A stretch of DNA of 64,000 nucleotides from Candidatus Gastranaerophilales bacterium (GTDB lineage Bacteria; Cyanobacteriota; Vampirovibrionia; Gastranaerophilales; Gastranaerophilaceae). Every line of letters starts with the position of its first letter. Position 1 is the stretch's first letter. The translations under genes were made by a program, and so were the position numbers. Location: NCBI GenBank assembly GCA_944324865.1, contig CALUXW010000001.1, positions 186,001 through 250,000 on the forward strand, written 5' to 3'. The notes below the pieces were generated by a model. That model was not told where the DNA came from, made no database searches, and worked only from the letters and a program-made list of their open reading frames with translations. Positions 4,514 to 60,435 of the stretch are shown here, one piece after another.

Positions 4514-4514
4514 A

Positions 4515-4877: not shown

Positions 4878-4892
4878 TTTATATTCCTTTAC

Positions 4893-5231: not shown

Positions 5232-5244
5232 ATTTATTACTACT

Positions 5245-5253
5245 ATTATAACA
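5245..5253 (-). promoter_or_regulatory. Extended -10 (TGTTATAAT) upstream of the lipoprotein-BlaI-TadE run
   Basis: The minus strand reads TG-T-TATAAT, a perfect extended -10, ending 13 bases before the lipoprotein ATG. The predicted leader is about 5-7 bases and no Shine-Dalgarno sequence is visible. Confidence 0.55.
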
Positions 5254-5289
5254 CTTATATGATTTTTTTTAAAGGATAAATAAAATATT

Positions 5290-5335
5290 TTTACAAAGTA
5301 CCAAAAATATAGTAAAATTATTAAAAATGTGAGGG
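5290..5335 (+). promoter_or_regulatory. Promoter and ribosome site of the GT6 gene
   Basis: TTTACA (5290-5295), a 17-base spacer and TAAAAT (5313-5318) make a good sigma-70 type promoter. GAGGG at 5331-5335 is the ribosome-binding site 4 bases before the ATG. Unlike several neighbours, this gene has a normal leader. Confidence 0.6.
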
Positions 5336-5339
5336 AATT

Positions 5340-7060: not shown

Positions 7061-7066
7061 ATTTTT

Positions 7067-7075
7067 ATAATATCA
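7067..7075 (-). promoter_or_regulatory. Extended -10 (TGnTATTAT) 6 bases before GT8 ATG; leaderless candidate
   Basis: Minus-strand TG-A-TATTAT is followed by AAAAAT and the ATG at 7060. This is the same geometry as upstream of the gene starting at 3626. Confidence 0.55.
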
Positions 7076-7099
7076 TGAAAAAAAAGGAAAGAATTAATT

Positions 7100-15241: not shown

Positions 15242-15855
15242 TATTCAAAACTACCGTTATAATCACCTACTTGATACTTTTGTGCATACTTATTTGCGGT
15301 ATCTTGCAAATAATTTATTTGAGAAAGTATATCATCCTTATCATTAGTCTGAGGCTTAAGTTCTAAATACTTATTATAAGATGCAATTGCCTTATTTAAT
15401 TTCTCTACAAGCTCACTTGCTTCTTGCACATTAATATTTTTTAAGTCAGAAAATTCATCCGAATTATCATCGCTTACCACTTCAACTTGAATATCTGAAT
15501 CATTCGAAGTTTCATCTTCCAGAATTTGCAGCGCATCACTTTCCTGGGCAACTGCAAGAGAATAATATGAATCAGCATAATCAGGTTTTATTTTTATAGC
15601 TTCACTCAACTGCTCCTGAGCTTTTTTAAAATCTTGAGCACTAATATATGCAACTCCGAGATTATAACGTGTCTCAAAAACCGTACCATCTAAATCAACA
15701 CTTGACTCAAGCCTGCAAATTGCACTTTGAAAGTCACCTTTTTGCATATATTCTTGAGCTTTGTTATTTAATTCCTCAATCGCAATATTATTTATACATG
15801 CACTACATAAAACACTTACAAACAATATCGCTAAAAATAATGTCAATTTTTTCAT
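15241..15855 (-). CDS. TPR-repeat lipoprotein
   Basis: A 204-residue protein with a signal sequence ending in the lipobox-like CSAC (Cys20), so it should be lipidated. Two clear tetratricopeptide repeats lie at about 27-60 and 61-94 (AQEYMQKGDFQSAICRLE; LGVAYISAQDFKKAQEQL), then an acidic linker and a third helical pair with YNKYLELKP. TPR lipoproteins often serve as scaffolds in envelope assembly. It lies just downstream of the large AsmA-like gene and just upstream of lgt. The ribosome site is AAAGGAAT; TTGATT and TATAAA-type boxes lie further upstream. Confidence 0.85.
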   Translation of the reverse strand: MKKLTLFLAILFVSVLCSACINNIAIEELNNKAQEYMQKGDFQSAICRLESSVDLDGTVFETRYNLGVAYISAQDFKKAQEQLSEAIKIKPDYADSYYSLAVAQESDALQILEDETSNDSDIQVEVVSDDNSDEFSDLKNINVQEASELVEKLNKAIASYNKYLELKPQTNDKDDILSQINYLQDTANKYAQKYQVGDYNGSFE

Positions 15856-15933: not shown

Positions 15934-18900
15934 TTAGTTGAGCCAGTTAAAACTTTTAACATAATCCTCAGAATTAAGCTTACCCTTAATTTTTGCCAAG
16001 AACAACCTGTAATCATCAGCAGAAATTTCAATTAAAGGAATTTTATTCACATTTTCAACTATTTGAGATCTGGCACCTTCTTTTATCTTGTTCCCCGTAA
16101 GTGTACTTAATAAAGTATTTAAAGATGCATTTCCCGCCGCCCCCAGAACATTACTAACATTTTTTGAAAGTCTGCCCAGGACTTCTATATTTGCATCGTC
16201 ATTTATAATATCATAATTACCATATATAAATAAACTCAAATTATTTCCCTTAGAGAAAATTTCCAAAGAAGAAATTTTACCAGCCCCAAGTTCAAAGCTA
16301 CCCTTTATTGCAGAAAATTCACCTGTTTTATATGGCATTAAAACTTCTATTAAATTATTTAAAGTTAAACCAAGAATTCCACTTTTTATTAAATTTCCAG
16401 CTCTTAATAAATATTCTAATGACCCAAGCTTTGGCATTTTACCATTATTTACGCTAAAATTTACATTACCCGAAACAAGTTTAATATCTTGAGCATTTTC
16501 CGGAATTTTACCCTTTAATTTAATTTTTGCATTTGTTCTGCCGTAAATTTGATTCTGCAATCCAAGAAAATTTTCACTAAGCGTATTTGCATCACAATCA
16601 TTTACAACCGAGTCAATATCAAAAAGCATGGATGAAACATCAAAATTTCCGCTTGATTTTATATTTCCGCCCGCAATGTCAAAACTCATGTCGTTAATGT
16701 TTAACATATCACCCGTAGGATTAGAAAAATGCATTTTTAAATTTGAAGCTTTAATATTATACAGTTCAATCTCGTCAGCACTAGCATGACCATCAAGAAT
16801 TAATAAATCCTTGGGCTTTAAAATTATTGGCTGACCAGGAACAATATCGGAAGAACCTTTTGGTAACTGAGAAATTCCTTCTATAAGTTGGGAAAGACTT
16901 GTCTTTTTTGACATTATATTTAAATTTTCCACAATAACAGGTAATGTTTGTTTATTTTGTATATTTGCAAAAATTTCAACATCGGAATCAAAACTTTTAC
17001 CTTTAATTGTAGCAATTATTTTTCTTTTTGAAATATCACAATCCAAATCATTAATTTTTGTACTGTACAAAGGAATATTAATATTTCTAAAATTAATTTT
17101 ACCGGTTGCATGCGGCAATAATACACTTCCGTTTAGATTCAAATCACACTTAAAAAGTCCTTGTTTTAAAACTGATTTTTTAAAAATTACATTAAAAACC
17201 TTTGCTGTAACTGCATTAGGTGTGAAAATCCTAAAATTACTAAAAGATAAATTTTTTCCATTAGAAATAAGATTACCATAAGCTTTCAACATTGTCACAG
17301 GAGTTGGCTTATTATTCTGAGAAGGAATAAACATTACATAGCTTGCATTATTTATTTTAGCGCTGTTTTTTGCAAAATTAGCGTTTGCTTCAAACTCCCT
17401 ATCATACTGAATATCACCGAAATTTGCCCCCATATATGTAATATCAGTGCCACGAGGAAGAGTTAAATAAGAAATAAGAGAATAATTATTAAAATCACCT
17501 TTTATTCTCCCTTTTAGACGAATTTCACCCTTTACCTTAAAAGGATAAGTAAGATACGGATTAATCAGCCTATCTGCAGAACTTTCGTCAATATTTGTAG
17601 AAAACATTGCATTAAATAACGGCTTTTTAGACAAGTAATCTCTAGCTGTCGCATTAAAGTAAATAGGCGTATTACCGTAATTAAAATTAAAAGCATCAAC
17701 AAAAATTTTTTCACCTGTAAACTTTATTGCGCCGCTTTTTAAAATTAGAGGGATTTGTTGTTTTTTATTAAACATGGAAATATTATTAAATTTAATTTTT
17801 CCGTAAGGAAAATTCTTTTTAATGTTTAAATTAAAATCTAGATATCCTTTATAATCAACGAAATCTGAAAGTAAAATCCTGAAAAGTTTAATATCGGAAT
17901 TGTTTACAAAATTTTGAACATTACCAAAACTGAAATTATTTGCGCTTAATTTTAAATTTAATTGCGGGTTTCTTATAAAATCATTAATATGCCCATCTGC
18001 ATAAACATCTGAATCAAAAAATTTTACATGGGAATTTGAAATTATAATTTTTGAACCATCAGCACTATATTTTCCATCGATAAATTTGATATTTTTTGAC
18101 ACATCAGAATTAATCGGCTCAAAATTACCATACAATTTTACTTTAGAATAATCTTGCTTTTTAAAATTTGCAGGAATTTCACCCTTAACCATACCAAAGG
18201 CATTAAATAAGAAATCTATTTTATTCAAAGGTGCATTTGTAAGTAAAAATTTTAAATCATTATTGGAAAAATAATGTTGCTCTTTTATAATATTAAGCAG
18301 CCGAGAGTAAGAAAGCATTTTAACACCGAGATTTAAATTTAATTTAAATTTTGCACTACTCTTTGTTAAATCAGATTCATTAGGAGTAATAGAGCCTTTT
18401 AAATAAGAGTCAGCTCCACTAAATTTAGTAACAATATCCACATTAAAGGTGTCGGAAAATGTAATTTTACCTTTTATATTAGAAAAATTATAATTTGGCA
18501 AAATCGTAGCACTTACGTTTTTTAAAATAATTTCCCCGGTTGGTTTTATATATTTTATAAAATCAAGACCTTCAAGACTTTTGGCTTTTCCTTTGAAAAC
18601 TATTGATAGATTTAAATCACCTTTTGCTTGCTTAATAAACGATAAATCACCGCTATAAGTTTTTATAAGTGTACTTGTTTTTGCTATATTTAAAATGTCA
18701 GTAGCAGTCACATTGGTAATTTGTGTCTTTACATCAAGATTATTATAGTCATCGGCAAATCCACGCAACTCGAATACACCGCCTGACATATCTGCACTTG
18801 TATTGACAATATTAATAATTTTCCCATTAAAGTCCAATTCAATTTTCCCATTCCTTAAAACAGTGTTTAAGCCATCCATAGAGGCAGTAATGTTTTTTGC

Positions 18901-20475
18901 CTTAAATTTACCATAAACAACTGCATCATAAATTGTGCCACTAGTTTTAATATGTATTTTACCGTTGCCAGAAATCTTCATAAAAGGTAAAGGTCCAAGT
19001 TTAAAGCCTATTACCCTTTGAACAGGAATTAAATACTTGTGTGCAAATGCTAAATCGACAGAATCCGAGGATACTACATCATATTCTCCGGTTTGTTTAC
19101 CATATATTTCAGAATGACCTTTAACTTTAACAAACTGATTGTTTGGACCTGCAACATATACATTTACATTTACAATATCGCCATCAAAATTACAATCAAC
19201 CGAAGCTGTATCAAAATTTTTTGGACGAGTAAATAAGTAAAGGTCATCAACTTTAATATCCCCATTAATATCTGGTTTTTTGTAATTACCTGAAATATTA
19301 ATCTCACCATTAAGCTTTGCATAAGGATTAGCTTTTAAAAGTTCATTAATAATATCTGTTTTATAAACAACGAAAGATGCAGGAATAATACGAATAAAAC
19401 TCATGAATTCACTATTTGTAATTTTTAAATTTATATCCGGTTTTGGATTCTTTGTTTTATAATTTTTTACTAACCCCGAAAAATTTAAATTAATATCATG
19501 AGACAAAACATCGGAAGGCTTAATGAGAAGTTCTCGTTTCTGCGCAATAAATGGTAAAGACAAAGATGTTGTTGCAGGCAAAGAAATAATATTTTTTTTA
19601 CCATTATAGTTAAAATTAGCTAAAACATCTGATAATTCTACATTAAGTAAATAGTTAGCATTTGTTCTGTCCTGATTTTTCTTAAAAGAAAGGTTGGCTT
19701 TTGCAGACAAATTATTAAAAATATTGCCTGAAAACTCATTAAAATATGGTAAATAAGGAGCTAAATTAATATTTCTAATATCAATGTCAAAATTTGTATC
19801 TTTATAGTCTAAATACTTATTAATAGGTAACCTTGAATCAAAGTAAAATGCAACATTAGTATCATGGCAATTCAATGAATCAAGGGCACATGTTTTTAAA
19901 ATACCTTTTGTATTTATTTCAAGTTTTTTCGGATTGTCCGAAGCGCTGAAAAGTAATGCATCAGAAACATATTCAAGTTTTTTATCAAACTTTTTGTCTA
20001 AAAAACTAACATTAATATTATTAATTTGCACATTTGCTTTTTTAAATCTTAATTTAAGCGGAAATTTTATCTCGTTACTTATAAATTTTTCAAAATCAAA
20101 TACGCCGTCCCTATCTCTTTGTAATATTAGCTTAAAATCATCAGAACTGAATTTTGAAACTGAAATATTTTTAAACAAAAGAGGTAAAATTGCTATTCTT
20201 AAGTTACATCTTGCAGTAGATAAAATGTTTTCTTGTTCATCGGGCATGGAAATTGAAAAATTATCTGCAGTGATACTTATTGTTAAGTCTGGCAATGTAC
20301 GTACTTTTGTATTAGAAAAGCATACAGTCAATCCAGAATTTTCTTTGACAATTTTTTTTATTTTATCTGCACTCAAGCAACAACTTGCAAGAAAACCTGC
20401 CAAAAAATATGTAACCAGACAAAAAGCGCCAAGTGAACAAATAAAAATTATAATTTTTTTCTTTGAAAAAACCAT
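15934..20475 (-). CDS. AsmA-like (TamB/YhdP-type) giant envelope protein
   Basis: A 1513-residue protein anchored by one N-terminal membrane segment (about 7-29), with the remainder in the periplasm. An AsmA-type N-terminal domain is followed by more than 1000 residues of repeating short beta-strands (patterns such as KINIKASGKI, GNFDVSSM), and a C-terminal AsmA_2-like region: GRTNAKIKLKGK, VNFSVNNGKMPKLGSLEYLLRAGNLI, then a TGEF/NDDANIEVLGR stretch. AsmA-like proteins form long hydrophobic grooves thought to carry phospholipid between membranes. The C-terminal 200 residues are clearly homologous to those of the AsmA-like protein at 24696-28220. No Shine-Dalgarno; TATAAT lies 6 bases before the ATG. 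Confidence 0.88.
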   Translation of the reverse strand: MVFSKKKIIIFICSLGAFCLVTYFLAGFLASCCLSADKIKKIVKENSGLTVCFSNTKVRTLPDLTISITADNFSISMPDEQENILSTARCNLRIAILPLLFKNISVSKFSSDDFKLILQRDRDGVFDFEKFISNEIKFPLKLRFKKANVQINNINVSFLDKKFDKKLEYVSDALLFSASDNPKKLEINTKGILKTCALDSLNCHDTNVAFYFDSRLPINKYLDYKDTNFDIDIRNINLAPYLPYFNEFSGNIFNNLSAKANLSFKKNQDRTNANYLLNVELSDVLANFNYNGKKNIISLPATTSLSLPFIAQKRELLIKPSDVLSHDINLNFSGLVKNYKTKNPKPDINLKITNSEFMSFIRIIPASFVVYKTDIINELLKANPYAKLNGEINISGNYKKPDINGDIKVDDLYLFTRPKNFDTASVDCNFDGDIVNVNVYVAGPNNQFVKVKGHSEIYGKQTGEYDVVSSDSVDLAFAHKYLIPVQRVIGFKLGPLPFMKISGNGKIHIKTSGTIYDAVVYGKFKAKNITASMDGLNTVLRNGKIELDFNGKIINIVNTSADMSGGVFELRGFADDYNNLDVKTQITNVTATDILNIAKTSTLIKTYSGDLSFIKQAKGDLNLSIVFKGKAKSLEGLDFIKYIKPTGEIILKNVSATILPNYNFSNIKGKITFSDTFNVDIVTKFSGADSYLKGSITPNESDLTKSSAKFKLNLNLGVKMLSYSRLLNIIKEQHYFSNNDLKFLLTNAPLNKIDFLFNAFGMVKGEIPANFKKQDYSKVKLYGNFEPINSDVSKNIKFIDGKYSADGSKIIISNSHVKFFDSDVYADGHINDFIRNPQLNLKLSANNFSFGNVQNFVNNSDIKLFRILLSDFVDYKGYLDFNLNIKKNFPYGKIKFNNISMFNKKQQIPLILKSGAIKFTGEKIFVDAFNFNYGNTPIYFNATARDYLSKKPLFNAMFSTNIDESSADRLINPYLTYPFKVKGEIRLKGRIKGDFNNYSLISYLTLPRGTDITYMGANFGDIQYDREFEANANFAKNSAKINNASYVMFIPSQNNKPTPVTMLKAYGNLISNGKNLSFSNFRIFTPNAVTAKVFNVIFKKSVLKQGLFKCDLNLNGSVLLPHATGKINFRNINIPLYSTKINDLDCDISKRKIIATIKGKSFDSDVEIFANIQNKQTLPVIVENLNIMSKKTSLSQLIEGISQLPKGSSDIVPGQPIILKPKDLLILDGHASADEIELYNIKASNLKMHFSNPTGDMLNINDMSFDIAGGNIKSSGNFDVSSMLFDIDSVVNDCDANTLSENFLGLQNQIYGRTNAKIKLKGKIPENAQDIKLVSGNVNFSVNNGKMPKLGSLEYLLRAGNLIKSGILGLTLNNLIEVLMPYKTGEFSAIKGSFELGAGKISSLEIFSKGNNLSLFIYGNYDIINDDANIEVLGRLSKNVSNVLGAAGNASLNTLLSTLTGNKIKEGARSQIVENVNKIPLIEISADDYRLFLAKIKGKLNSEDYVKSFNWLN

Positions 20476-20481
20476 GTGACA

Positions 20482-20487
20482 ATTATA
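20482..20487 (-). promoter_or_regulatory. -10 box (TATAAT) 6 bases before the 1513-residue AsmA-like gene; leaderless candidate
   Basis: The minus strand reads TATAAT, TGTCAC, ATG. The start point would fall on or next to the ATG. No ribosome-binding sequence is present. Confidence 0.55.
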
Positions 20488-20536
20488 CTATCTGAACTAT
20501 CAGAGTAAAAATTCTTCATATTTTTTAATTTCACTT

Positions 20537-20564
20537 TTGCAAAATTAAAAAAATGACTTAATAT
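20537..20564 (+). promoter_or_regulatory. Promoter TTGCAA-16-TAATAT, 7 bases before the 182-residue gene; leaderless candidate
   Basis: TTGCAA at 20537-20542 and TAATAT at 20559-20564 with a 16-base spacer. The ATG follows after 7 bases, none resembling a ribosome site. A second reading uses TATAAT at 20562-20567. This promoter would drive the exported-protein and TonB-ExbBD-AsmA run. Confidence 0.5.
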
Positions 20565-20571
20565 AATAATT

Positions 20572-21120
20572 ATGAAAAAAATATTTTTAGCAATTACCTT
20601 TGTGGCTGTTTTACTAACAATGTATAGTCTAAACACATTAGCTGCAACACTAGAAAAGGGTTCTTTTGTTCTTGTAGAAACAAAGAAAATACTCTCTACA
20701 CAAACACTACAAGAAGGTGATACGGTTTACTTTATTGCACCACAGGACACTTGGCTAGATGAAATAAATATTGTGCCTAAAAATAGTATTTTTACAGGTT
20801 ATGTAAGCATGCTGAAAATGCCTGTAAAGGGCATTAATGCTGCAATTAAGTTCAAAATTACACATATCACATTACCAAATGGTGAAACACATGAGTTTGA
20901 CGGAGTAATAACAGACGGTAAAAGCGATATGATAGGAGGAGAACTGGCACCACCTGCTTCATATAATAAAATGACACATTTATATCAATCTAGGTGGCAC
21001 TGGTCAGGAACAACACAATGGGTGCCAAGCGGAGATTACGAATATGGACAACATAGAGGTGTAAAACCCGGACAAAAACTTTTCGTTGTAAATGAAAGCC
21101 CATATATTACAAATGATTGA
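20572..21120 (+). CDS. Exported beta-rich protein, paralogue of the next gene
   Basis: A 182-residue protein with a clear signal peptide cleaved near ALA-ATL (about residue 24). The mature part (KGSFVLVETKKILSTQTLQ ... VPKNSIFTGYVSM ... IKFKITHITLPNGETHEF) matches in order the core of the downstream 235-residue protein. The shared pattern, 'high-value modifier, stable constant, then range of change under option', resembles the outer-edge beta-domain seen in VirB10/TrbI-type proteins, but this is a fold-level guess. The Trp-rich C-terminus (WHWSGTTQWVPSG) is distinctive. It is the first gene of the plus-strand envelope run. Confidence 0.78.
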   Translation: MKKIFLAITFVAVLLTMYSLNTLAATLEKGSFVLVETKKILSTQTLQEGDTVYFIAPQDTWLDEINIVPKNSIFTGYVSMLKMPVKGINAAIKFKITHITLPNGETHEFDGVITDGKSDMIGGELAPPASYNKMTHLYQSRWHWSGTTQWVPSGDYEYGQHRGVKPGQKLFVVNESPYITND

Positions 21121-21152
21121 TTTAAACTTTACTATCAAAAATTATAGTGTAT

Positions 21153-21177
21153 TATAATAAAAAGGAATAAAAGGAGG
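21153..21177 (+). promoter_or_regulatory. -10 box and AAGGAGG ribosome site of the 235-residue gene
   Basis: TATAAT at 21153-21158 and a near-perfect AAGGAGG at 21171-21177, 4 bases before the ATG. The 61-base gap from the upstream gene leaves room for an internal promoter. Confidence 0.5.
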
Positions 21178-21181
21178 AGAC

Positions 21182-21889
21182 ATGGGTAAAGTATTTAAAA
21201 AAGGTTTGGTACTGTCAGTATTTACAGCCTTCACCTTGTTAACCAACTCTGCATACGCAGATTCCAACTATTCATACGTCACAAATACAAACAATAACTA
21301 TAGCACTCTACAGGGTCAAGTTGTCTATGTTCCAACCGGAACTACGACAAGTGCCATTATTTCACAAACTCTTGACTCGAAAACTTGTAGTAAAGGAATG
21401 AGCGTATATGCAACCTTAAATAAAGATTTCACATACAATGGAATTGAAGTTGCGCCGCAAGGTTCTACACTTAACGGCACTATAACAAAATGTAAAAAAG
21501 CGGGAATAGGCAATAGAAACGGTCAAATACAAATACGATTTACAAGTATTACAACACCATCAGGCTATAATATACCCGTTAGTGCAATGATTGCAACAAC
21601 AGATAATACTGGTATATTAAAAGGTGGTGCAACAAAAGACAGTGCTAAAGATTACGGCAAAAATGTTGCAATTGGTGCAGCAGGAGGAGCTGTCCTGGGC
21701 ACTGCAATGGGACCACTCTCTGGCGGAAAAGTTGGAAAAGGTGCAGTATACGGTACAGCAGTAGGAGGCGGACTTGGTCTGCTAAATGCAGCAAGACAAT
21801 CCGGAGAAGATGTGCAAATACCTGCAAATGCAGTTATGGATATATATTTTGACCAACCAATAACCCTAAGTGCACCAAAGAGTTATTAG
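21182..21889 (+). CDS. Exported glycine-zipper protein
   Basis: A 235-residue protein with a signal peptide (cleavage near AYA-DSN, residue 27). A beta-rich domain (about 45-150) resembles the upstream 182-residue protein: APQGSTLNGTITKCKKAG and QIRFTSITTPSGYNIPVSAMI. A glycine-zipper membrane-insertion motif follows at about 160-200 (GAAGGAVLGTAMG, GTAVGGGLGLL), then IPANAVMDIYFDQPITL. The zipper suggests it sits in or crosses a membrane. It precedes the TonB-like gene by 77 bases. The molecular role is unknown; envelope function is inferred from export and neighbours. Confidence 0.78.
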   Translation: MGKVFKKGLVLSVFTAFTLLTNSAYADSNYSYVTNTNNNYSTLQGQVVYVPTGTTTSAIISQTLDSKTCSKGMSVYATLNKDFTYNGIEVAPQGSTLNGTITKCKKAGIGNRNGQIQIRFTSITTPSGYNIPVSAMIATTDNTGILKGGATKDSAKDYGKNVAIGAAGGAVLGTAMGPLSGGKVGKGAVYGTAVGGGLGLLNAARQSGEDVQIPANAVMDIYFDQPITLSAPKSY

Positions 21890-21966
21890 TAAATATAGTA
21901 AATCGGCTAATTTAAATTAAAGTCATTTATTTAAAAATAAATTCAAAGAAAATAAAAAGAGACGAT

Positions 21967-23151
21967 ATGACTAAATTGAGAGACAAATTTTATATTGACG
22001 ATTCGGATGATTTAATGGAAAACGATATCAAAACGCTTCCCAATAGTTTCGAAGATGACAGAGACGAGTTATCCCTAAAAAACTCGCTTATAATGTCTAT
22101 CATACTACATCCCGTAGCGTTTTTCGTTATTTGGGCACTCATTACATACGCAATTAGTTTAAACTTAATTCAAAAACCACCCTTAAAACCAAGAGATATA
22201 GAATTTGTAATAACACAAAATGAAGCAATGCCGATTAACAAAAATACAAAATATCGTTCCGACAGAAATTCGAGAGCAGGCGGAATACATGACCCAAATC
22301 GAAAGGTTTCTTTGCCTAGTGCGCCTTCTAAAGCTGCACCAAAATCTGTTTCATCACCGTCGGTAGCGCAAAAAAAGACTACACAACCTAAACAACAAGT
22401 AAAAAAACAAGTCACCCCTGTAAAAAAACAACAAACTCAGGCACCAAAAGCACCGCAAAAGCCGCAACCTGCAAAAGCACCTTCACCATTGTTTAAGCCC
22501 ACACTTAAACCAGCTACAACACCACCAAAAACTCAAGCACCAAAGCTATCGCAAGTGCCAAAAAGTCCTTTTTCGGTGGCAGTTCCAAAAAGCACAGCTC
22601 CTGTGGGCCCTGCACCCAGTTTAGGTTCTAAATCAGGCTCAAGTACATCCGGCGGAAGTACAGCATCAGGCACCTCTAAGGGCACAGGTATGCCATCGCC
22701 TCAATTTTCGGCATCAAAAGGTAGTTCAAGTTCCGGTGCATCAAGGAGCTCAACTGGTTCAAGAGGTTCAAGAGGTTCAGGATATTCCGGCGGAAACATA
22801 GGCAATCCGGGTCCGGGAAATCCATCCGGACCTCCCGGAATAGACGCAATAAGACAACCAAACTGGGGGCCTTACATGCGTGATTTAGAAGCAAGAATAA
22901 AAAGAAATTGGAACCCTCCAAAAGGCGACCAAAGCAAACGAGTTATCTTATTATTTAAAATAGGACGTGATGGCAGATTACTGTCGATACAAACAGTAAA
23001 AAGTTCGGGTCAACCACTATCTGATGCTGCAGCAAAGGCAGCAGTTGAGTTGACAGCACCTTTTAGACCATTACCTCCAGAATTTAAAGGTAGCAGCATA
23101 GATATTGAGTTTACTTTTGATTACAACGTACTCGGAGCAAGTTACAGATAA
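21967..23151 (+). CDS. TonB-family energy transducer
   Basis: A 394-residue TonB-like protein. It has a cytoplasmic acidic tail, a single membrane segment (about 41-66) holding the S44-xxx-H48 pattern equivalent to the Ser-His pair through which TonB contacts ExbB/ExbD, a long Pro/Lys/Gln linker (about 110-210), a Ser/Gly-rich stretch, and a TonB C-terminal domain (WGPYMRDLEARIKRNWNPP, then VILLFKIGRDGRLLSIQTVKSSG). The linker is long enough to span a periplasm. ExbB and two ExbD genes follow directly. No TonB-dependent receptor is in the window, so the partner is unknown; the co-transcribed AsmA-like protein is the obvious candidate. Confidence 0.9.
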   Translation: MTKLRDKFYIDDSDDLMENDIKTLPNSFEDDRDELSLKNSLIMSIILHPVAFFVIWALITYAISLNLIQKPPLKPRDIEFVITQNEAMPINKNTKYRSDRNSRAGGIHDPNRKVSLPSAPSKAAPKSVSSPSVAQKKTTQPKQQVKKQVTPVKKQQTQAPKAPQKPQPAKAPSPLFKPTLKPATTPPKTQAPKLSQVPKSPFSVAVPKSTAPVGPAPSLGSKSGSSTSGGSTASGTSKGTGMPSPQFSASKGSSSSGASRSSTGSRGSRGSGYSGGNIGNPGPGNPSGPPGIDAIRQPNWGPYMRDLEARIKRNWNPPKGDQSKRVILLFKIGRDGRLLSIQTVKSSGQPLSDAAAKAAVELTAPFRPLPPEFKGSSIDIEFTFDYNVLGASYR

Positions 23152-23175
23152 TACAGAAAATGAGGATAAAATATT

Positions 23176-23823
23176 ATGGAACTTTTTTTAGAATCAATCA
23201 AAATGGACTGGCCTGTTTTAACGCCTATTTTCATTTGTTCAATTCTTACAATTGCTGTTGCAATTAACCGATTTTACTACTACAAAAAAAATGACCGCAA
23301 CATTGGTGAATTTATTCAAACTTTGCAAAAAGCTTTGGTAAAAAACAATATTGGTGCCGCACAAAGAGCATCGATACAATTAGGGGGCATTATAAGTGAA
23401 ATGGTGGACGAAGGTTTAAGAATATACACCGAACAGCGCGCCGGTTTTTCAAGGGCGTATGATATATCAGCAAGCCTAGCTACAAGAAAACTTGAAAAAG
23501 GGTTAACAATACTTGGTACAATTGGTGGCGTTGCACCATTCCTTGGCTTATTTGGTACGGTTGTGCGTATTTTATATACATTTCAAGACTTGGCGGTACA
23601 AGGTAATCAATCTGCAGCCGTAGCTACAGGTATTGCATCAGCTCTTATTGCAACAGCTTTTGGTCTTGGTGTTGCAATTGTGGCAGTAGTCTTGTATAAC
23701 TATTTTCAAACGGTTGTTTCTCGTTTTGAAAGCGATTTTAAACTAATTAAACTTGTGTTCCTTAGCTTTATTGACTCTGACGAAGAAGTAAAAGTAGACG
23801 AATCAGGTACAATTGCTCTTTAA
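23176..23823 (+). CDS. exbB: ExbB/TolQ/MotA-type proton channel protein
   Basis: A 215-residue inner-membrane protein with three membrane helices (about 14-33, 109-135, 150-177). The family cores are intact: GTIGGVAPFLGLFGTVVRI at helix 2 and GIASALIATAFGLGVAIVAV at helix 3. Five such subunits form the stator-like ring that uses the proton gradient to drive ExbD/TonB. It lies 24 bases after the TonB-like gene and 15 bases before the first exbD. Confidence 0.95.
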   Translation: MELFLESIKMDWPVLTPIFICSILTIAVAINRFYYYKKNDRNIGEFIQTLQKALVKNNIGAAQRASIQLGGIISEMVDEGLRIYTEQRAGFSRAYDISASLATRKLEKGLTILGTIGGVAPFLGLFGTVVRILYTFQDLAVQGNQSAAVATGIASALIATAFGLGVAIVAVVLYNYFQTVVSRFESDFKLIKLVFLSFIDSDEEVKVDESGTIAL

Positions 23824-23838
23824 TTTTGAGGTAAAAAA

Positions 23839-24294
23839 ATGGTTATAAAAGTAAGTGCAGACGGTAAAAAACCCGTATTTAATGAAATAAACATAACACC
23901 ATTGACAGATATTTTTCTGGTTTTGTTAATAATAATGATGGTTATCGCTCCCAGTTTTCAATCTTTAGATAAGAATATAACAATTCCGGAAATCAACTCT
24001 GGTGTAAGTATTGAAGAAAAAAATGCAACTGTTGCACTAACAAAAGAAGGTGAGTTATTTTTAAACGGAGAAAAAACAAGTCATGATGCTCTAGAGGGTA
24101 AACTTGCAGCCTTAATTTCAAATATGGAAAAAAAGGAAGTTGTTGTCAAAGCAGACGAAAAAGCAAAAAGCTCAGATATAATGCAAATAATGCGCTCTGC
24201 CCAAAATGCCGGATTTGAAAAGCTTGTTGTAGCAGGTGAACCACTTAGTAAAAAAGAGCAAAAAGAACTCCAAAACAAGGGGGAAGAACAATGA
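23839..24294 (+). CDS. exbD: ExbD/TolR biopolymer transport protein, copy 1
   Basis: A 151-residue protein with a short cytoplasmic part, one membrane helix (about 24-40) and a periplasmic domain. NEINITPLTDIFLVLLIIMMV is the family core; Asp24 is the proton-carrying residue. GAGGT ribosome site upstream. Its 3' end overlaps the second exbD by 4 bases (ATGA). An acidic Lys/Glu-rich C-terminus distinguishes it from copy 2. Confidence 0.94.
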   Translation: MVIKVSADGKKPVFNEINITPLTDIFLVLLIIMMVIAPSFQSLDKNITIPEINSGVSIEEKNATVALTKEGELFLNGEKTSHDALEGKLAALISNMEKKEVVVKADEKAKSSDIMQIMRSAQNAGFEKLVVAGEPLSKKEQKELQNKGEEQ

Positions 24295-24677
24295 AAAGAC
24301 AAACATTTAACGAAATAAATATAACCCCCCTAACCGACATTTTTCTTGTGTTATTAATTATAATGATGGTTATAGCGCCAATGCTTGACCAACAGGGTTT
24401 GAATTTAGCAATACCTGACTACATAGAAAAAACACAAGATACGCCAAAAGAAAATAAAATACTTACAGTTACAGTCAGCTCGGATAACAAATATTATATA
24501 GACGAAAGCGAAATTCAAGAAAAAGACTTGTTTAACACAATCAAAGAAAAGTCATCAACTTTGACTGACGGACTAATGATTCAAGCAGAAGGCAATAGTC
24601 AGCATGGATGCGTTGTTAAATTAATGGACACAGCAAGAAATGCAGGTGTTAAAAGCATTTCAATTATGGAAATTTAA
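24291..24677 (+). CDS. exbD: ExbD/TolR biopolymer transport protein, copy 2
   Basis: A shorter 128-residue ExbD with the same FNEINITPLTDIFLVLLIIMM helix as copy 1 (catalytic Asp16), so the pair arose by duplication. The periplasmic domains differ strongly. ExbD works as a dimer inside the ExbB ring, so two genes could give a heterodimer. The AGGGGGAAG ribosome site lies inside exbD copy 1. The AsmA-like gene starts 18 bases downstream. Confidence 0.94.
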   Translation: MKRQTFNEINITPLTDIFLVLLIIMMVIAPMLDQQGLNLAIPDYIEKTQDTPKENKILTVTVSSDNKYYIDESEIQEKDLFNTIKEKSSTLTDGLMIQAEGNSQHGCVVKLMDTARNAGVKSISIMEI

Positions 24678-24695
24678 ATTTAAAAGGCAGGTTAC

Positions 24696-27600
24696 ATGAT
24701 TTTCAAAAAAATCAATACAAGCCCTAAAATTTTAAAAATTTTAAAAATAGGTTCTATATCATTTTTTGGATTTATATTATTTTTATATCTTTCATTTTTG
24801 CTTATACTGCCAAATGTAATAAATGTAAATAATTTTACGCCGCAAATAAATACGCAAATCGAAAAGCAAACCGGATTTAAATTTTCATTGATTAACCCTA
24901 AGTTTAAAACAACTTGGAGACTCGGTATTAAATTTGCTGCAGACAACGTCTTATTAAAATATCCCGACGATACAGATTTCTTAAACCTTAAACGACCATC
25001 CATAGAAATTAATTTACCAACTTTAATTTTTAAAAAACTGAATTTGGACAAAATATATGTCCAAAATGCAAACGTAAAACTTGTTTTTACAAAAAATAAA
25101 AACTATACAATAGAAGAAAACATAAATAAAATAACTGACGAATTGCAAAAAAATAACAAGGAAAACAAACAAAATAATTTACCAATAGAAATAAAAAACA
25201 TTAATATTGACATACAAAAAGTCGATTTGCTTGTAAAAGACGAAAATATTTCAAAAGACTTTTTATTGGTTGCAAACAATACGAAAGTATCGCTTTCTTC
25301 GCTAAACGGACCATTAAAATTAAATAGCAACGGATATTTAAAAGCGGAAGGAAATAAAGAAAATTTTATAGATTATAACATTAAATTACAAACAAAATTA
25401 CCAAAACAAGAGCAAAAAAATAAAAACGATGTAAAAATTATTGACTTTTTCCCAGATTTTAACCCACTTGCAAATCTGGACACTTACAATTTTCACTCAA
25501 AGATTGACTGCGATTTAAAAATTACTGAGCTTGGAGAAAAATTTAATGCAAAAGGATATTTCAATATCGACGAAATTACTTTAAAAATTAACAAATACAA
25601 CCTGCCCCTCAGCTACATGAAGTCAACTTTTAATAAAAATAATATTAACACTAAATCCAAAATATACATTTCAAAAGATGAGCTTATTAGTGCTAATAAC
25701 ACTATGAATATAAGTAAAAAATCAAATCTTGATCTAAACATTAAAAGCGACAAAATCAGTCTTACTAATGTTCAAAATCTTGTTGTATCAATACTCGAAA
25801 TGTTTGCAATCAAAAATGATGTAAAATCTGCAAGTGTAAAAGGATATTTTAACTGCGATTTTAACTTAAAAAGCGATCTTAAATCAGTTAAATCATCCGG
25901 AAAATTAGAACTGCAAGAAGCAAACGTTAAATATCCAAAAATAGGATTAAACCTAACTCAAATAAAATCCCTGCTTGATTTTAACGGCAATAAAATCTCA
26001 ATTAAAGATACTCAAGCATTTTTAAATGGTTCAAAACTTGCAGTATCAGGAACAATAGACTCAAAGACAAATACTGACATAACCGTCAGCTCTGATCCTG
26101 TAAAAATTTCCGATATTATCAAGCTTGCAAAACAAACAGGAATTTTAAAAGAAAAAGACATAAAAGACTACTCTTTCAACAACGGGATTGCAATAATACT
26201 GTTTGAAATAAGAGGAAATTTTAAAAATTTAGTACCTGTTGCAGATATAAAGCTCAACAACTTGGCAATGCTAATTAAAAGTCTAAGCACATCAATAGCT
26301 ATTGATAAAATCTCTATTGTTGCGCAACCTGATAAAAAAAATGATTTTAGCGCAAAAGCAAATATTCAAAATTTCAAAGCCAACATTAAAAACCCATCAT
26401 TAACAATTAATACAGACAAAAGTATAATAAATGCAAACTCTGAAACACTAACTATTGAACCATTTTTAATAAATTTACAAGGTACAAAAATTAACACTTC
26501 AGGCGAGATAAAAAACTACACAAAAAATCCTGAAATTAAATTTATTTCAAACGGAAATATAAATCCACAAACAATATTGGCTTTTGTACCTGCACAAAAC
26601 AGAAAATATATAACATATCAAGGTCAAATGCCATTTAAACTTGAAATTAGTGGTACATTAAATAACATAAATTTGAAAAGTGATGTAACTTCAAATCCAA
26701 AAAACCACATAAGCATTATTGATATTAAAAACATAAAAGGTCTGGAAAATAATCTTAATGCAGACTTAAACATAAAAAATAACAATATTATTATAAACAC
26801 TATTTCAATTATATCTAAAAATAAAAGTATAGCCGATATTAATGGCAAAATACTTAATATAAACTCAAATATGCCACAGTTTTCTTCTTTTAATATCTTA
26901 ATACCGCAAAAACTTTCACTAACACTACCTGCGCTTGCCATGTTATCATTTGATACAGATGCAAATCTTATCTTGAACTCAACTGTATATAATCCGCAAA
27001 TAAGCGGTAATGCAAATATTTCAAATTTATCTTATCCTGATTTTAAAATAAACCTTGCAAATACTAAACTAGATTTCAAGAAATCTACAATTAATGCACA
27101 AGCACAAGGGCTTAAAATTTCTGATTCCGATTTCAATGGAAATGCCGAAATTTCAAGCAACTTCAGTAAAGTTATAACAATCAATTCACTGGATTTTAAT
27201 TCTAATTACATAAATGCAGACTCATTGTTAAAACTGACAACATCATTACCAAATACACAAACTACAGCAGGTCCGACATTGCCACTAATTATCAAAAATG
27301 GTAATGCAAAGATTACAAAATTAAAATCAGGCACAATAGAATCACAAAATATTTCTTTTAATTTTAATTTATACAACAACTTATTCACACTTTCAAAGAT
27401 AGTTGCAACATTTGCAGATGGAAATATATCTGCTGATGCAACCTATAACATTGCAAACACAAAAGTAACAATAGATGCAGTTGGAAAATCAATAAACGCA
27501 AAAAAAGCAGCATCATGTTTTGCAGGCGGCAGTTCTATAATAATGAGCGGTACAGCAAACGGAATCTCTAAAATTAATTTTAGAGGGAATAATCTTAATC

Positions 27601-28220
27601 AACAAATGAGAACACTAAACGGACAAGTAATTTTTGACATTTCAAATGGTCAATACGGGGAAGCCGCAAGGTTTGAAAGATTTTTACATGCAGGCAATCT
27701 ACTTTCGCAAAGCCTTTTGAATTGGAACATTAACCAAACCATCTCTGCAGTTACAAGTAGAAACACCGGAGAATTTAAAAATATTGAAGGTAAAATATCT
27801 TTATCAAATGGTTGGGCAAATATTACAAGTCTTGAATCATCAGGACCTAATATGAGTTTATATATAACAGGTAAATATAATCTATTGACTGAAAATTCCG
27901 ATATAAAAGTGCTCGGCAGAATTTCATCATCAGTTGTGAGTATTTTAGGACCTCTGGGTTCTTTTTCATTAAATAAAGTTGTAGAAAAACTTCCTGATGC
28001 AGGACTTGCCATTTTAAATACCATTAAAACAATAACACCAACAAACCCATTATTTGCAGACATAAATCAAAGTGATATCTCAAAAATTCCACCATTGAGT
28101 AATGTTTCCAATAATTCTACTTCAAAAGATTTTCAAGTTTTGATTAATGGTCCTCTATCAAAAACAACATCGATAAAATCATTCAAATGGGCTAACCCGC
28201 AGTCAACAGATATAAATTAA
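24696..28220 (+). CDS. AsmA-like giant envelope protein encoded in the motor operon
   Basis: A 1174-residue protein with one N-terminal membrane segment (about 18-42), an AsmA-type N-terminal domain, long beta-strand-rich central part (very Asn/Lys/Ile-rich), and an AsmA_2-like C-terminus: MSGTANGISKINFRGNNLN, VIFDISNGQYGEAARFERF, HAGNLL, TGEFKNIEGK and SDIKVLGRISSSVVSILG. These last segments line up with the same region of the 1513-residue protein. It begins 18 bases after exbD copy 2, so it is almost certainly co-transcribed with the TonB-ExbB-ExbD motor. Likely a periplasm-spanning lipid-handling protein; that role is inference from the family. Its stop overlaps that of the M16 peptidase gene (TTAA). 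Confidence 0.88.
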   Translation: MIFKKINTSPKILKILKIGSISFFGFILFLYLSFLLILPNVINVNNFTPQINTQIEKQTGFKFSLINPKFKTTWRLGIKFAADNVLLKYPDDTDFLNLKRPSIEINLPTLIFKKLNLDKIYVQNANVKLVFTKNKNYTIEENINKITDELQKNNKENKQNNLPIEIKNINIDIQKVDLLVKDENISKDFLLVANNTKVSLSSLNGPLKLNSNGYLKAEGNKENFIDYNIKLQTKLPKQEQKNKNDVKIIDFFPDFNPLANLDTYNFHSKIDCDLKITELGEKFNAKGYFNIDEITLKINKYNLPLSYMKSTFNKNNINTKSKIYISKDELISANNTMNISKKSNLDLNIKSDKISLTNVQNLVVSILEMFAIKNDVKSASVKGYFNCDFNLKSDLKSVKSSGKLELQEANVKYPKIGLNLTQIKSLLDFNGNKISIKDTQAFLNGSKLAVSGTIDSKTNTDITVSSDPVKISDIIKLAKQTGILKEKDIKDYSFNNGIAIILFEIRGNFKNLVPVADIKLNNLAMLIKSLSTSIAIDKISIVAQPDKKNDFSAKANIQNFKANIKNPSLTINTDKSIINANSETLTIEPFLINLQGTKINTSGEIKNYTKNPEIKFISNGNINPQTILAFVPAQNRKYITYQGQMPFKLEISGTLNNINLKSDVTSNPKNHISIIDIKNIKGLENNLNADLNIKNNNIIINTISIISKNKSIADINGKILNINSNMPQFSSFNILIPQKLSLTLPALAMLSFDTDANLILNSTVYNPQISGNANISNLSYPDFKINLANTKLDFKKSTINAQAQGLKISDSDFNGNAEISSNFSKVITINSLDFNSNYINADSLLKLTTSLPNTQTTAGPTLPLIIKNGNAKITKLKSGTIESQNISFNFNLYNNLFTLSKIVATFADGNISADATYNIANTKVTIDAVGKSINAKKAASCFAGGSSIIMSGTANGISKINFRGNNLNQQMRTLNGQVIFDISNGQYGEAARFERFLHAGNLLSQSLLNWNINQTISAVTSRNTGEFKNIEGKISLSNGWANITSLESSGPNMSLYITGKYNLLTENSDIKVLGRISSSVVSILGPLGSFSLNKVVEKLPDAGLAILNTIKTITPTNPLFADINQSDISKIPPLSNVSNNSTSKDFQVLINGPLSKTTSIKSFKWANPQSTDIN

Positions 28221-31093
28221 TCAGCTTGAATAACATCACCCAAAGAATTAATAAAGTCTTGCTGGTTATTAATTGTGTCCGGACTAGCAAGTATAGAAAT
28301 AGTTGGCTTATTTTTAAAAACATGTTTTGCGGCTTTAGATATATCATCGATTGTTATAGAGTCAATTGCCTTTACATATTCATCAATTCTTTTAATTCCG
28401 TACGGCAGAGTCATATTCATTGAAATTAAATCTGTTTCAGATGCAGGCAACTCAGTTTGTTTTGCAATTCTTTGCTTTAGTTGCATTTTTGCAGAATCTA
28501 ATTCTTCCTGGCTAACAGGTTCACTTAGCATTTTTTTAACTTGTACATCAAAACCGTCTAGCGACTTTTGCAAATTATCGTAACTAATTTCATCTTGCGC
28601 CTTATCATCTGTTGTACTCATTATAAACATAGTTAAAATACCAGTATCCTCAAAAGATTGCACCTGAGAAGAGACTCTGTAGGCAAGTTTCTTATTTTCG
28701 CGCAAATCTTGAAATAACCTTGATGCAGGTGAACCACCCAAAATTTCATTTAAAAGCTCAAATTTTACTTCATCTTTAATATTACCCGACATTTTAAAAG
28801 AATAAGTTTTATAAATCTGGGCTTGGTTCAATTCAGCTGTATCAACAATAACTTTTGTTTCCTTATTTGGCTTATAAATACAATTAAATTTTGGGGTAAA
28901 ATCCTTGAATACAACAGGACTTTGCGAAACAAAAGACATGGCAGATGCTTTTAAATCAGGATTTGAATAAAATGGAGCAGTAACTACATAATTGGAAGAA
29001 GATTTATTTATCATATCTTTATAATGTTTTACAACGTCATTCAGATTCATAGACTCCAACCCTTTAAGAATTTCTTTAGCAGAACCAAAGTAATTGGGGT
29101 ACAACTGTACAAGCATATTATCTGATCCATCTTTGTCGATTGATTCAAAATAAGCTTTAATTTTATTTTTTGCTTTTTCAAAATCTTCATTCGAAAAATT
29201 TGGATTATACATAACTTCATTTAATAATGACATTGTTTTACTTAAATCTTTAGACATGCAATTAGCACTGACTAATATTTGAAATCCGTTTGAATCAAAG
29301 TTATACTCAATTCCACTTGACGTTGTATCAATGTCAATTTGTTCCTTTGAACGTAAGGCAGAACCTGTATTTAATAATTCAGTTAAGACATATGGTATTG
29401 CAAGATTTTTAGGCATAGCAGAAATTGCACTTAAACGCCAATTAAGATAACAAACATCAGACTTGTTTGAATTATTAAGCGCAATATGCGCATTATTATT
29501 TAAAGCATATTCACTTACATCAGTAGTGTCTATACTCCTTGAACCGAAAGAAATTTCCCCGGCAGATGCAGCTTTGTTTTTGGGAACAAATTTACTATTT
29601 GAATAGTTATTCAATATTTGTTCATCACTTACACCAGCAGGATGAACTATTGCCATTGAAACCTTATTTAAATCAACATACTTAAGCGCAGCATTCACAA
29701 TGTCTTGTGCAGTAAGGGAATTAATGATATTTTGCATGTTTGAAATATCATTTAAATTACCATCAAGAAATCCGCTTCCAATTGCCTCACAAGTATTTTC
29801 AGCACTTTCAAAACTTATGGCAAGCTGCTTCGTTAAGTTACTTTTAATTGTATTCATTTCGTATTCACTGGGAGGGTTTTTAGTTAAATCTAATATTACA
29901 TCATAAAATGCATCCAGTGCTTTTTGCTCTAATTGAGCTGGTGTATTAATTTGTACAAATAATGCTTGCGGGTCATTATTATTTAAACCTACTTTTTGCA
30001 AACTTAAATAACTATACGAATTTAGCTGAGAAAGAGCTTTTGAAAGTCTTGAAGAAGAATTACCTTCCAGCAAAATATCGAGAGCCTCGAGGGCAATTGT
30101 ATCTCGCGTATTATCAACAGTAGGAGCTGCAAAACCCATTATAATATTTGTAGTATTTGTAATTTGTGATTTTAGATCAATTCTAACAGGCGTGGTTATT
30201 GGTGTAAGCACTTCTTTAGTTACAGTATCTGGGCGAACTTTGGCAGGCTGATTAAATTCTTTTGCTAATGTAGCTATTGCATCTTGCGGGTTAACATCAC
30301 CTACAACAACAGTATACAAGCTATCTGGAGTATAGTGCTTAGACCAATAATCAACAACATCTTCACGCGCTAAATTATTTACTGTATCAATTGAGCCTGC
30401 AACCAGATTTTCTGAAGTAGAATTAATTTGAAATAAATTTCTTACCACTTCATTAGCGGCCTTAGTTGTAACATCATCATTAATCATACTTATTTCAGAA
30501 GTAACTGGACCTTTTTCTTTTTCAAGCATATCTTTATAAAACTTTGGTCTCAATATCATATCAGCATGCATCTGTGCTGCTTTTTTAAAATCGGCATCAC
30601 ACATAATGCCTGATGAAATATAATAATCAGTCTGTGCATAATCAGTTGAGGCATTTGTTGAAGCACCCATTTTAGTAACATCTTTAAAAAACTGGCCCGG
30701 GGCAAGATTCTCGCTTCCGTTAAATAGATTATGTTCAATAAAATGGCTTATACCCCTTATTCTGTCATTTTCATTCATTGACCCTGAATCAACAAATGTC
30801 TTTAGTATAGTAGTGCCTTCACGAGGCAAAATAGCAATTCTTTGACCGCTTTTAAGCATATAAGTATAAATATTTTCACCAAATGGAGTTTTGATAGTTC
30901 CTAAATAAGTATAATCAGAACTTATTTTTGGATTAACAAGTAAAGGATTTATCGGATTTGTCATATACATAGGTACAACCTGGTAAGGCACACCACCTGC
31001 TTGCGGCATTGCGTAATAAACATTTTGAACAACCGGAGGACAGTAAGATGACGTATATGGACTATTATAATTATAATTTATACTTGATAACAT
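28217..31093 (-). CDS. M16-family zinc peptidase (fused two-half type)
   Basis: A 958-residue peptidase of the insulinase/pitrilysin superfamily with two M16 halves in one chain. The N-terminal half has the inverted zinc motif H117-F-I-E-H121 and the downstream ligand Glu200 in VTSEISM; the second half (from about 520) lacks HxxEH and is the usual inactive partner, ending with LAYRVSSQVQSF-type family residues. It lacks an obvious signal peptide and opens with about 55 Tyr/Pro/Asn-rich residues, so its location is uncertain. It faces the AsmA-motor operon with overlapping stops. AGG lies before the ATG. Confidence 0.93.
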   Translation of the reverse strand: MLSSINYNYNSPYTSSYCPPVVQNVYYAMPQAGGVPYQVVPMYMTNPINPLLVNPKISSDYTYLGTIKTPFGENIYTYMLKSGQRIAILPREGTTILKTFVDSGSMNENDRIRGISHFIEHNLFNGSENLAPGQFFKDVTKMGASTNASTDYAQTDYYISSGIMCDADFKKAAQMHADMILRPKFYKDMLEKEKGPVTSEISMINDDVTTKAANEVVRNLFQINSTSENLVAGSIDTVNNLAREDVVDYWSKHYTPDSLYTVVVGDVNPQDAIATLAKEFNQPAKVRPDTVTKEVLTPITTPVRIDLKSQITNTTNIIMGFAAPTVDNTRDTIALEALDILLEGNSSSRLSKALSQLNSYSYLSLQKVGLNNNDPQALFVQINTPAQLEQKALDAFYDVILDLTKNPPSEYEMNTIKSNLTKQLAISFESAENTCEAIGSGFLDGNLNDISNMQNIINSLTAQDIVNAALKYVDLNKVSMAIVHPAGVSDEQILNNYSNSKFVPKNKAASAGEISFGSRSIDTTDVSEYALNNNAHIALNNSNKSDVCYLNWRLSAISAMPKNLAIPYVLTELLNTGSALRSKEQIDIDTTSSGIEYNFDSNGFQILVSANCMSKDLSKTMSLLNEVMYNPNFSNEDFEKAKNKIKAYFESIDKDGSDNMLVQLYPNYFGSAKEILKGLESMNLNDVVKHYKDMINKSSSNYVVTAPFYSNPDLKASAMSFVSQSPVVFKDFTPKFNCIYKPNKETKVIVDTAELNQAQIYKTYSFKMSGNIKDEVKFELLNEILGGSPASRLFQDLRENKKLAYRVSSQVQSFEDTGILTMFIMSTTDDKAQDEISYDNLQKSLDGFDVQVKKMLSEPVSQEELDSAKMQLKQRIAKQTELPASETDLISMNMTLPYGIKRIDEYVKAIDSITIDDISKAAKHVFKNKPTISILASPDTINNQQDFINSLGDVIQAD

Positions 31094-60434: not shown

Positions 60435-60435
60435 T

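Follow-up and report, generated by a model that had tools for sequence, protein, structure and literature searches.

A Tol/Ton-type motor operon of Gastranaerophilales with a VirB10-like neighbor, joined in one clade by two AsmA-like genes

In a 64,000-nucleotide stretch of Gastranaerophilales DNA (here called the window), the genes of a Tol/Ton-type motor lie between genes for two exported proteins, b182 and b235, and a gene for an AsmA-like giant, AsmA1174; a second giant, AsmA1513, is encoded divergently on the far side of b182. The initial annotation of the window took the two exported proteins for accessory parts in an AsmA-type transfer of lipids. The arrangement of genes that it described was confirmed, and its interpretation found support in part. 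The pair is more than accessory: b182 is a homolog of b235, and the two are the most constant neighbors of the motor, a feature that the initial annotation had not seen and that is more interesting than the linkage to the AsmA genes. The reading that we favor, and to which we give about an even chance, is that the motor acts on a VirB10-like outer-membrane end and that one clade has coupled two AsmA bridges to it.

Results

Two homologous exported proteins precede the motor across the order

The window comes from a draft genome of 1.79 Mb in 63 contigs (94.8% complete), whose closest named relatives by ExbB are metagenome-assembled genomes of Candidatus Gastranaerophilales and Candidatus Galligastranaerophilus. 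We scored the gene order flanking the motor in two samples that overlap, one of 80 loci chosen by ExbB similarity, which lean toward close relatives, and the other a genus sample of 60 loci from 36 genera and 7 families, with one to five loci per genus. The gene encoding b235 lies immediately 5' of tonB in 71/73 scorable loci of the ExbB-similarity sample and in 58/60 of the genus sample, and b182 lies 5' of b235 in 62/70 and 46/58 scorable loci, respectively. Profile comparison identified b182 as a homolog of b235 (probability, 98.7%; E = 3.8e-16).

The predicted structure of b235 is that of a VirB10 C-terminal domain, an assignment based on structure comparison and on weak matches to Pfam TrbI (13/41 b235 members). 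The AlphaFold model has a mean predicted local distance difference test (pLDDT) score of 71.6, with a beta core mostly above 90 and residues 150 to 199 below 50. It matched 24 PDB entries at E ≤ 0.001, and every one of them comes from ComB10 or from a type IV secretion outer-membrane complex (those of Xanthomonas, R388 Trw, pKM101, the F plasmid, Cag, and Dot/Icm). The PDB titles name TrwE/VirB10, CagY, or ComB10 for some of these matches, and we take the remaining matched chains to be VirB10-type. With VIA-align, the VirB10-type entries shown scored Z values of 8.8 to 13.9, and the next fold scored 3.9. Searches of the sequences of solved structures returned four weak matches to the b235 profile (designed Pizza proteins and, over the glycine-rich part, an OmpA-family protein of a Dot/Icm structure) and none to the b182 profile.

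VirB10 carries outer-membrane helices, and it has a long N-terminal part. At about residues 150 to 205, b235 has a helical insert of glycine-zipper type, and two glycine-zipper families match 18/41 b235 members each. Judged from the aligned ranges and from what is known of VirB10, this glycine-rich insert would sit at the position of the VirB10 outer-membrane helices. Could the pair then descend from a type IV secretion ring and form a pore for secretion or uptake that the TonB motor opens? Both the VirB10 fold of the model and a glycine-zipper insert where VirB10 has its membrane helices would fit a pore. The insert, however, is modeled without confidence, the gene 3' of ExbD2 differs between genera, and VirB9/CagX was found over the cut-off in none of the 117 genomes of the order that we searched (weak matches in 7/117, none of them in the window genome; the control was positive in 1/14 named genomes). 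We consider such a pore decidedly improbable. A type IV secretion system as such was rejected on the VirB9 result.

A short N-Y/F-x-Y/F peptide follows the signal peptide in 89 of 129 b235 sequences; shuffled sequences gave a mean of 9.8 and a maximum of 22, in a shuffle that ignores descent, and the pattern used for the domain start failed in some rows (for example, L035 to L037, L039, L041, and L157). It is possible that this peptide is a docking motif.

In the window genome, the b235 profile has eight matches, namely, b235, b182, and six proteins encoded elsewhere, some of them weak. Two of the weakest (E = 3.5e-6 and 4.6e-6; L195:6557-7744 on contig C17 and L199:6736-8193 on contig C15) carry SLH domains. 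In OmpM and other terrabacterial tethers of the outer membrane, the SLH domain is the part that binds the cell wall. Proteins that combine an SLH domain with a b235-like domain are possibly tethers between the cell wall and the outer membrane, and their domain content suggests that, in these bacteria, the outer membrane is where the VirB10-like domain acts.

The motor looks intact and its sequences lean toward the Tol side

All four motor proteins score over the Pfam cut-offs: the TonB-like protein for TonB_2 (52.4 bits; cut-off, 22), the ExbB-like protein for MotA_ExbB (103.9 bits; cut-off, 22.9), and ExbD1 and ExbD2 for ExbD (88.3 and 86.4 bits; cut-off, 25.4). With the NCBIfam models, the ExbB-like protein scores 104.8 bits for TolQ versus 80.1 for ExbB, and the ExbD pair scores 81.2 and 85.2 bits for TolR versus 58.5 and 60.2 for the best ExbD model, all below cut-off; the TonB-like protein scores 43.9 bits for TolA, below the equivalog cut-off, versus 39.1 for the TonB domain, above its cut-off. 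The scores thus lean to the Tol side, and only the TonB domain passes its cut-off.

The TonB-like protein has an N-terminal transmembrane helix with an SxxxH motif, a linker rich in Pro, Gln, and Ser, and a TonB C-terminal domain. Within the helix, H48 is conserved in 100% and S44 in 92% of 135 aligned sequences, and T128 and T160 of ExbB, D24 of ExbD1, and D16 of ExbD2 are invariant (100%) in 139 aligned sequences each; the sequence of the window is included in every alignment. We take these positions to be the functional residues of the motor, and by this conservation the motor looks intact and would be active.

ExbD is present in 116 of the 117 genomes of the order, usually in two copies; it was not found in the single genome of genus g36 (88% complete). 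TonB is encoded upstream of ExbB in 76/80 loci of the ExbB-similarity sample and in 60/60 of the genus sample, and both ExbDs are encoded downstream in 78/80 and 60/60. The ExbD pair of the window is the only ExbD locus found in its genome, which also has two MotA-MotB pairs (L194:6098-7631 and L200:5375-7113). Five loci (L100, L101, L102, L109, and L141) have a further TonB-like gene, or a piece of one, close to ExbB, which suggests transducers that are duplicated or broken; several of these loci group with genus g15 on the motor tree, and L109 is not placed there.

Classical partners of Ton and Tol motors are scarce or undetected

The initial annotation had pointed out that no TonB-dependent receptor is present, and the draft genome bears this out: searches with the receptor barrel family PF00593 (the plug family PF07715 was not searched) found none in the window genome and none in 109/117 genomes of the order, with controls positive in 3/14 named genomes. 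The other eight genomes (G005, G007, G009, G011, G013, G020, G033, and G105) have single barrels, in each case on a contig other than those of the listed ExbD places. Could this nevertheless be an ordinary Ton system with few receptors, with receptors missing from the assembly, or with receptors that diverge too far for PF00593 to find them? The barrels in 8/117 genomes would fit that explanation, as would a 2025 survey that sought Ton systems as tonB plus receptor genes and, in the part of it drawn on here, places them in most diderm species of Terrabacteria and Gracilicutes (PMC12204202). It is opposed by the contrast between a barrel that was not found in the window genome or in 109/117 genomes and an ExbD that is present in 116/117, and by the position of tonB within the motor operon, which the same part of that survey describes as infrequent for tonB. 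We regard an ordinary Ton system as very unlikely.

TolB_N (PF04052) was found in none of the 117 genomes (controls positive in 3/14). OmpA domains occur in 37/39 relatives, unsorted as to Pal. The window draft genome shows no sign of Pal, because its two OmpA-domain proteins are both MotB, with MotB_plug, encoded beside MotA. Membership in the Tol-Pal system was rejected on TolB across the order and, for the window genome only, on Pal.

The motor genes and AsmA1174 are closely spaced in one direction

The features of the locus in the window are as follows.

15241..15855, minus strand: TPR lipoprotein; a neighbor, probably outside the unit
15934..20475, minus strand: AsmA1513, an AsmA/TamB/DUF748-like giant of 1,513 residues; open reading frame (ORF), divergent from the motor operon, a clade-specific neighbor
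20476..20571, no strand: divergent intergenic region of 96 bases between AsmA1513 and b182; presumed promoter region, from coordinates
20572..21120, plus strand: b182, exported protein; ORF with an apparent signal peptide by eye, a core partner
21182..21889, plus strand: b235, exported protein; ORF with an apparent signal peptide by eye, a core partner
21967..23151, plus strand: TonB/TolA-like force transducer of 394 residues; ORF, Pfam TonB_2
23176..23823, plus strand: ExbB/TolQ-like proton-channel subunit of 215 residues; ORF, Pfam MotA_ExbB
23839..24294, plus strand: ExbD1/TolR-like subunit of 151 residues; ORF, Pfam ExbD
24291..24677, plus strand: ExbD2/TolR-like subunit of 128 residues; ORF, Pfam ExbD
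24696..28220, plus strand: AsmA1174, AsmA/YhdP-like, 1,174 residues; ORF, Pfam AsmA, a clade-specific operon member
28217..31093, minus strand: M16 peptidase; a neighbor, probably outside the unit

The genes from tonB to AsmA1174 run in the same direction, and the coordinates agree with the initial annotation in the gaps between them: 24 bases between TonB and ExbB, 15 between ExbB and ExbD1, -4 between ExbD1 and ExbD2, and 18 between ExbD2 and AsmA1174. A scan with a terminator consensus found no plus-strand site between the genes of the operon; the sole plus-strand match lies inside AsmA1174. The spacing makes it probable that these genes form one transcript. Promoter-like matches over positions 20300 to 28600 were no more frequent than chance (37 versus 36.6 in shuffles).

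The linkage of AsmA genes to the motor is confined to one clade

We scored AsmA1174 as adjacent within about 1.5 kb of the motor and AsmA1513 within about 2.5 kb. A locus was unscorable when its contig ended too near the motor, as in 5 (AsmA1174) and 11 (AsmA1513) of 144 loci, including 2 and 1 of the 60 genus-sampled loci; 78 of the 80 ExbB-similarity loci entered this count, two being without ExbD2. In the genus sample, AsmA1174 was adjacent in 6/58 scorable loci (genera g1 and g18) and AsmA1513 in 7/59 (genera g1, g18, and g22). These shares are if anything too high because the sample includes all five g18 genomes of the draw, three of which were added once the linkage had been observed. 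Both giants have relatives in 116/117 genomes of the order, with 2 to 9 matches per genome for AsmA1174 and 1 to 8 for AsmA1513; the two profiles are homologous, and the counts overlap and include pieces and cross-matches. Ten unlinked relatives of AsmA1174, drawn from the rows of profile matches and not at random, have varied surroundings, none near motor genes. Elsewhere in the order, no constant downstream partner was seen: the gene after ExbD2 varies, with FtsH and then a CdhD-like gene in a g2 locus, FtsH in a second locus, and a TPR protein in g14.

On a FastTree phylogeny of the motor proteins (138 rows, 128 of them distinct, with several identical rows and with the base of the key clade unresolved), all AsmA-linked loci fall into one clade of 59 rows with local support of 100. 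The linkage changes three times on the tree for AsmA1174 and twice for AsmA1513. A gain in one clade is the simpler reading, because the families outside the clade are without either linkage, and the method cannot tell gain from loss. In a genome of another family (G009, contig C48), an AsmA1513 relative (59049-63590) stands about 10 kb from the ExbD genes (73956-74772), a position that could reflect an earlier proximity or be due to chance.

Within the whole clade (52 loci, repeats left out), AsmA1174 is kept in 42/51 loci and AsmA1513 in 42/46. In 46/48 adjacent loci, the first possible start codon of AsmA1174 falls between -1 and +33 bases relative to the stop of ExbD2; in the other two, it is at -50 and -47. 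The subclade resembling the window is uninformative because every neighbor is kept there: lgt, the TPR gene (12/12), the M16 gene (14/14), and HGDH are retained as fully as the AsmA genes. The subclade around g18 differs. There, AsmA1174 is beside the motor in 23/24 loci and AsmA1513 in 21/21, versus 0/23 for M16 and 0/18 each for lgt, TPR, and HGDH (TPR was scored on its original side, and one locus, L053, has a TPR match on the other side), and the g18-like AsmA1174 proteins are only about 28 to 31% identical to that of the window. Retention despite this drift and the loss of the outer neighbors speaks for selection on the linkage. The initial annotation's expectation that gene order would be kept in relatives did not hold across the order and failed in part within the clade, and its proposal that the TPR lipoprotein and the M16 peptidase are accessory parts fell; along with lgt and HGDH, they were rejected as such because the g18-like subclade has lost them while retaining the AsmA genes.

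These counts bear on the alternative that the AsmA genes stand beside the motor by history alone, through one rearrangement, passive inheritance, and perhaps a shared promoter. Confinement of the linkage to a single clade agrees with it, as do the equal retention of lgt, TPR, M16, and HGDH in the window-like subclade, the finding that AsmA1513 is no better kept than lgt among the remaining loci of the clade, and the unrelated genes (FtsH or a TPR protein) that follow ExbD2 in other genera. The g18-like subclade, in which both giants persist while the outer neighbors are gone and AsmA1174 has such low identity to that of the window, argues against it, and we think history alone unlikely.

AsmA1174 is an AsmA-like protein with a predicted long beta structure, and AsmA1513 is its homolog

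AsmA1174 scores 45.4 bits for Pfam AsmA (cut-off, 29.8), and AsmA1513 scores 36.1 bits for DUF748, below the curated cut-off of 50. Profile comparison aligned the two as homologs along most of their length (1,059 columns; 100%; E = 1.3e-72), and the C-terminal words quoted in the initial annotation as shared between the divergent giants occur in both sequences. Neither profile matched the sequences of solved structures. The model of AsmA1174 (pLDDT, 83.4; predicted template modeling score, 0.53) has a helix at residues 10 to 41 followed by successive beta strands. Foldseek matches to ApoB (E = 3.0e-6) and LPD-3 (E = 1.1e-4) ranged up to E = 9.6e-4, with low TM-scores (≤0.17), and VIA gave Z = 8.2 against the N terminus of Vps13 in an unspecific comparison in which receptors and porins equally reached 8 to 9. 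By its Pfam score and its model, AsmA1174 belongs with the AsmA-like proteins, as a predicted membrane-anchored beta structure with a putative role in lipid transport.

Does the motor directly energize lipid transfer through AsmA-type bridges, as the initial annotation proposed? In favor of this idea, the motor residues are intact, no receptor barrel was found in the window genome, the distance from ExbD2 to AsmA1174 is that expected within an operon, and both giants remain beside the motor in the g18-like subclade, from which the other neighbors have disappeared. AsmA1174 also models as a long succession of beta strands with matches to ApoB, LPD-3, and Vps13 (at the scores above), and the part of PMC10900882 used here treats the driving force of lipid flow through AsmA-like proteins as an unsettled matter. 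On the other side, the motor occurs without an adjacent AsmA1174 in 52/58 scorable genus-sampled loci, AsmA relatives occur in 116/117 genomes whether linked or not and the unlinked ones have varied surroundings, and lipid-transfer proteins score no higher in VIA than receptors and porins do. We hold direct energizing to be an improbable explanation.

VirB10-like proteins may have accompanied the motor before the order arose

In four loci of family f8, which belongs to another order of the class (L187 to L190), a small membrane-anchored b182-like protein and a protein that we presume to be Rid-like precede TonB, ExbB, and a single ExbD. In hhalign, an alignment of four rows of the small protein matched b182 at 89.8%, and a protein clearly related to b235 (99.9%) is encoded 4 to 6 kb away. 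From these loci, the association between VirB10-like proteins and the motor may predate the order. Across the phylum, the b235 profile matches 119/244 genomes, six of them outside the class and weakly. In one ExbD region each of five of these six out-of-class genomes (L192, L193, and L201 to L203), no b235 was seen; in each of two of these genomes, ExbD has four matches. In L192 (positions 4287-7309; G143, of another class of the phylum), an M16 peptidase gene directly adjoins ExbD-ExbB; the M16 gene near the motor of the window is, by comparison, not retained in all of its clade.

Discussion

Our results describe an order of the cyanobacterial phylum with a near-universal motor operon, few detectable receptors, and no detectable TolB, and no Pal in the window genome. 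We propose that a ring of ExbB/TolQ, with two different ExbD/TolR subunits, would pull or turn the TonB/TolA-like transducer. Its outer-membrane end would most likely be the b182-b235 pair instead of a TonB-dependent receptor or TolB-Pal, and the transducer may contact b235, b182, or both at the outer membrane, where the pair could oligomerize. The motor would do Tol-like work, holding or remodeling the outer membrane. If a VirB10-fold protein is indeed the outer-membrane end, this lineage has a way to couple proton flow to the outer membrane for which no account in print turned up in the literature listings searched.

In one clade, two AsmA bridges appear to have come to the locus and to have been largely kept, with AsmA1174 as the last gene of the operon and AsmA1513 transcribed divergently on the other side. 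From this retention, the supply of lipids to the outer membrane is probably coregulated with the motor and perhaps localized to it. Such an indirect tie would explain how the AsmA bridges share the locus without being motor driven. Direct energizing of lipid flow is possible and is not needed for the reading that we favor. A bolder proposal is a third class of proton-driven trans-envelope machine, in which ExbB-ExbD-TonB works on a VirB10-type ring of b235 with b182 at the outer membrane, replacing TonB-dependent receptors or TolB-Pal, as the Tol equivalent of a terrabacterial lineage, and the AsmA bridges of one clade deliver lipids to the ring, with the flow gated or energized by the motor; we offer it tentatively, as an improbable outcome.

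Several observations weigh against a motor that acts on a VirB10-like outer-membrane end and has been coupled to AsmA bridges. Gene order can mark shared regulation only, and the absences that we report rest on draft genomes. The profile missed b182 in 8/70 and 12/58 loci with room for it, where some ORFs went unrecognized; the N-Y/F-x-Y/F peptide is absent in some genera; a pore made by the glycine-zipper insert is putative, the insert having a pLDDT below 50; and the six b235-profile matches away from the motor indicate that the domain has other uses. Among the remaining 14 loci of the AsmA-linked clade, AsmA1174 is kept in only 5/13 and AsmA1513 in 9/13, the same as lgt and TPR, which speaks against an obligatory link between AsmA proteins and the motor.

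Veillonella is a diderm of the Terrabacteria. Its tamB mutations suppress mla defects according to the part of PMC10665443 used here, so AsmA-type carriers matter for outer-membrane lipids there. PMC8912898, when searched, made no mention of energy, proton motive force, TolQRA, Tol-Pal, or TonB. Listings of open-licence literature yielded no published account of a VirB10-fold protein coupled to a TonB motor or of AsmA genes linked to a motor, which does not show absence from print. The AsmA-linked clade provides a natural setting in which to test whether such a motor cooperates with bridge-like lipid carriers, a matter left open in the AsmA literature as far as covered here (PMC10900882).

One of the closest known systems is Tol-Pal, in which a single operon likewise encodes motor, transducer, and secreted partners and whose TolQ, TolR, and TolA models are the nearest by hidden Markov model score, below the equivalog cut-offs. 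Here, in contrast, TolB_N is missing (0/117), no Pal was found in the window genome, there are two TolR-like subunits, and the partner has a predicted VirB10 fold; the 2025 survey, in the part used, reports Tol-Pal from Gracilicutes only (PMC12204202). The locus resembles a Ton system in a TonB C-terminal domain over the cut-off and in conserved channel residues, and it differs in having no receptor barrel in the window genome (8/117 in the order) and TonB directly upstream of ExbB (60/60). With VirB10, TrbI, ComB10, and CagY of type IV secretion, b235 shares the predicted C-terminal beta fold; unlike them, it is short, is without the long N-terminal part of VirB10, occurs where no VirB9 was found over the cut-off, and is encoded with a proton-driven motor. 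AsmA1174 is like the AsmA, YhdP, TamB, and DUF748 bridges in its Pfam match over the cut-off, its N-terminal membrane helix, and its predicted long beta structure, and unlike them it stands, in one clade, at the end of a TonB-ExbB-ExbD operon. The motor-linked vWA force transducers presented in PMC12204202 are comparable as nonclassical partners recognized by synteny with tolQ/tolR-like genes; there it is the C-terminal domain of the transducer that has changed, whereas here the transducer is TonB-like and the secreted neighbor is the unusual part.

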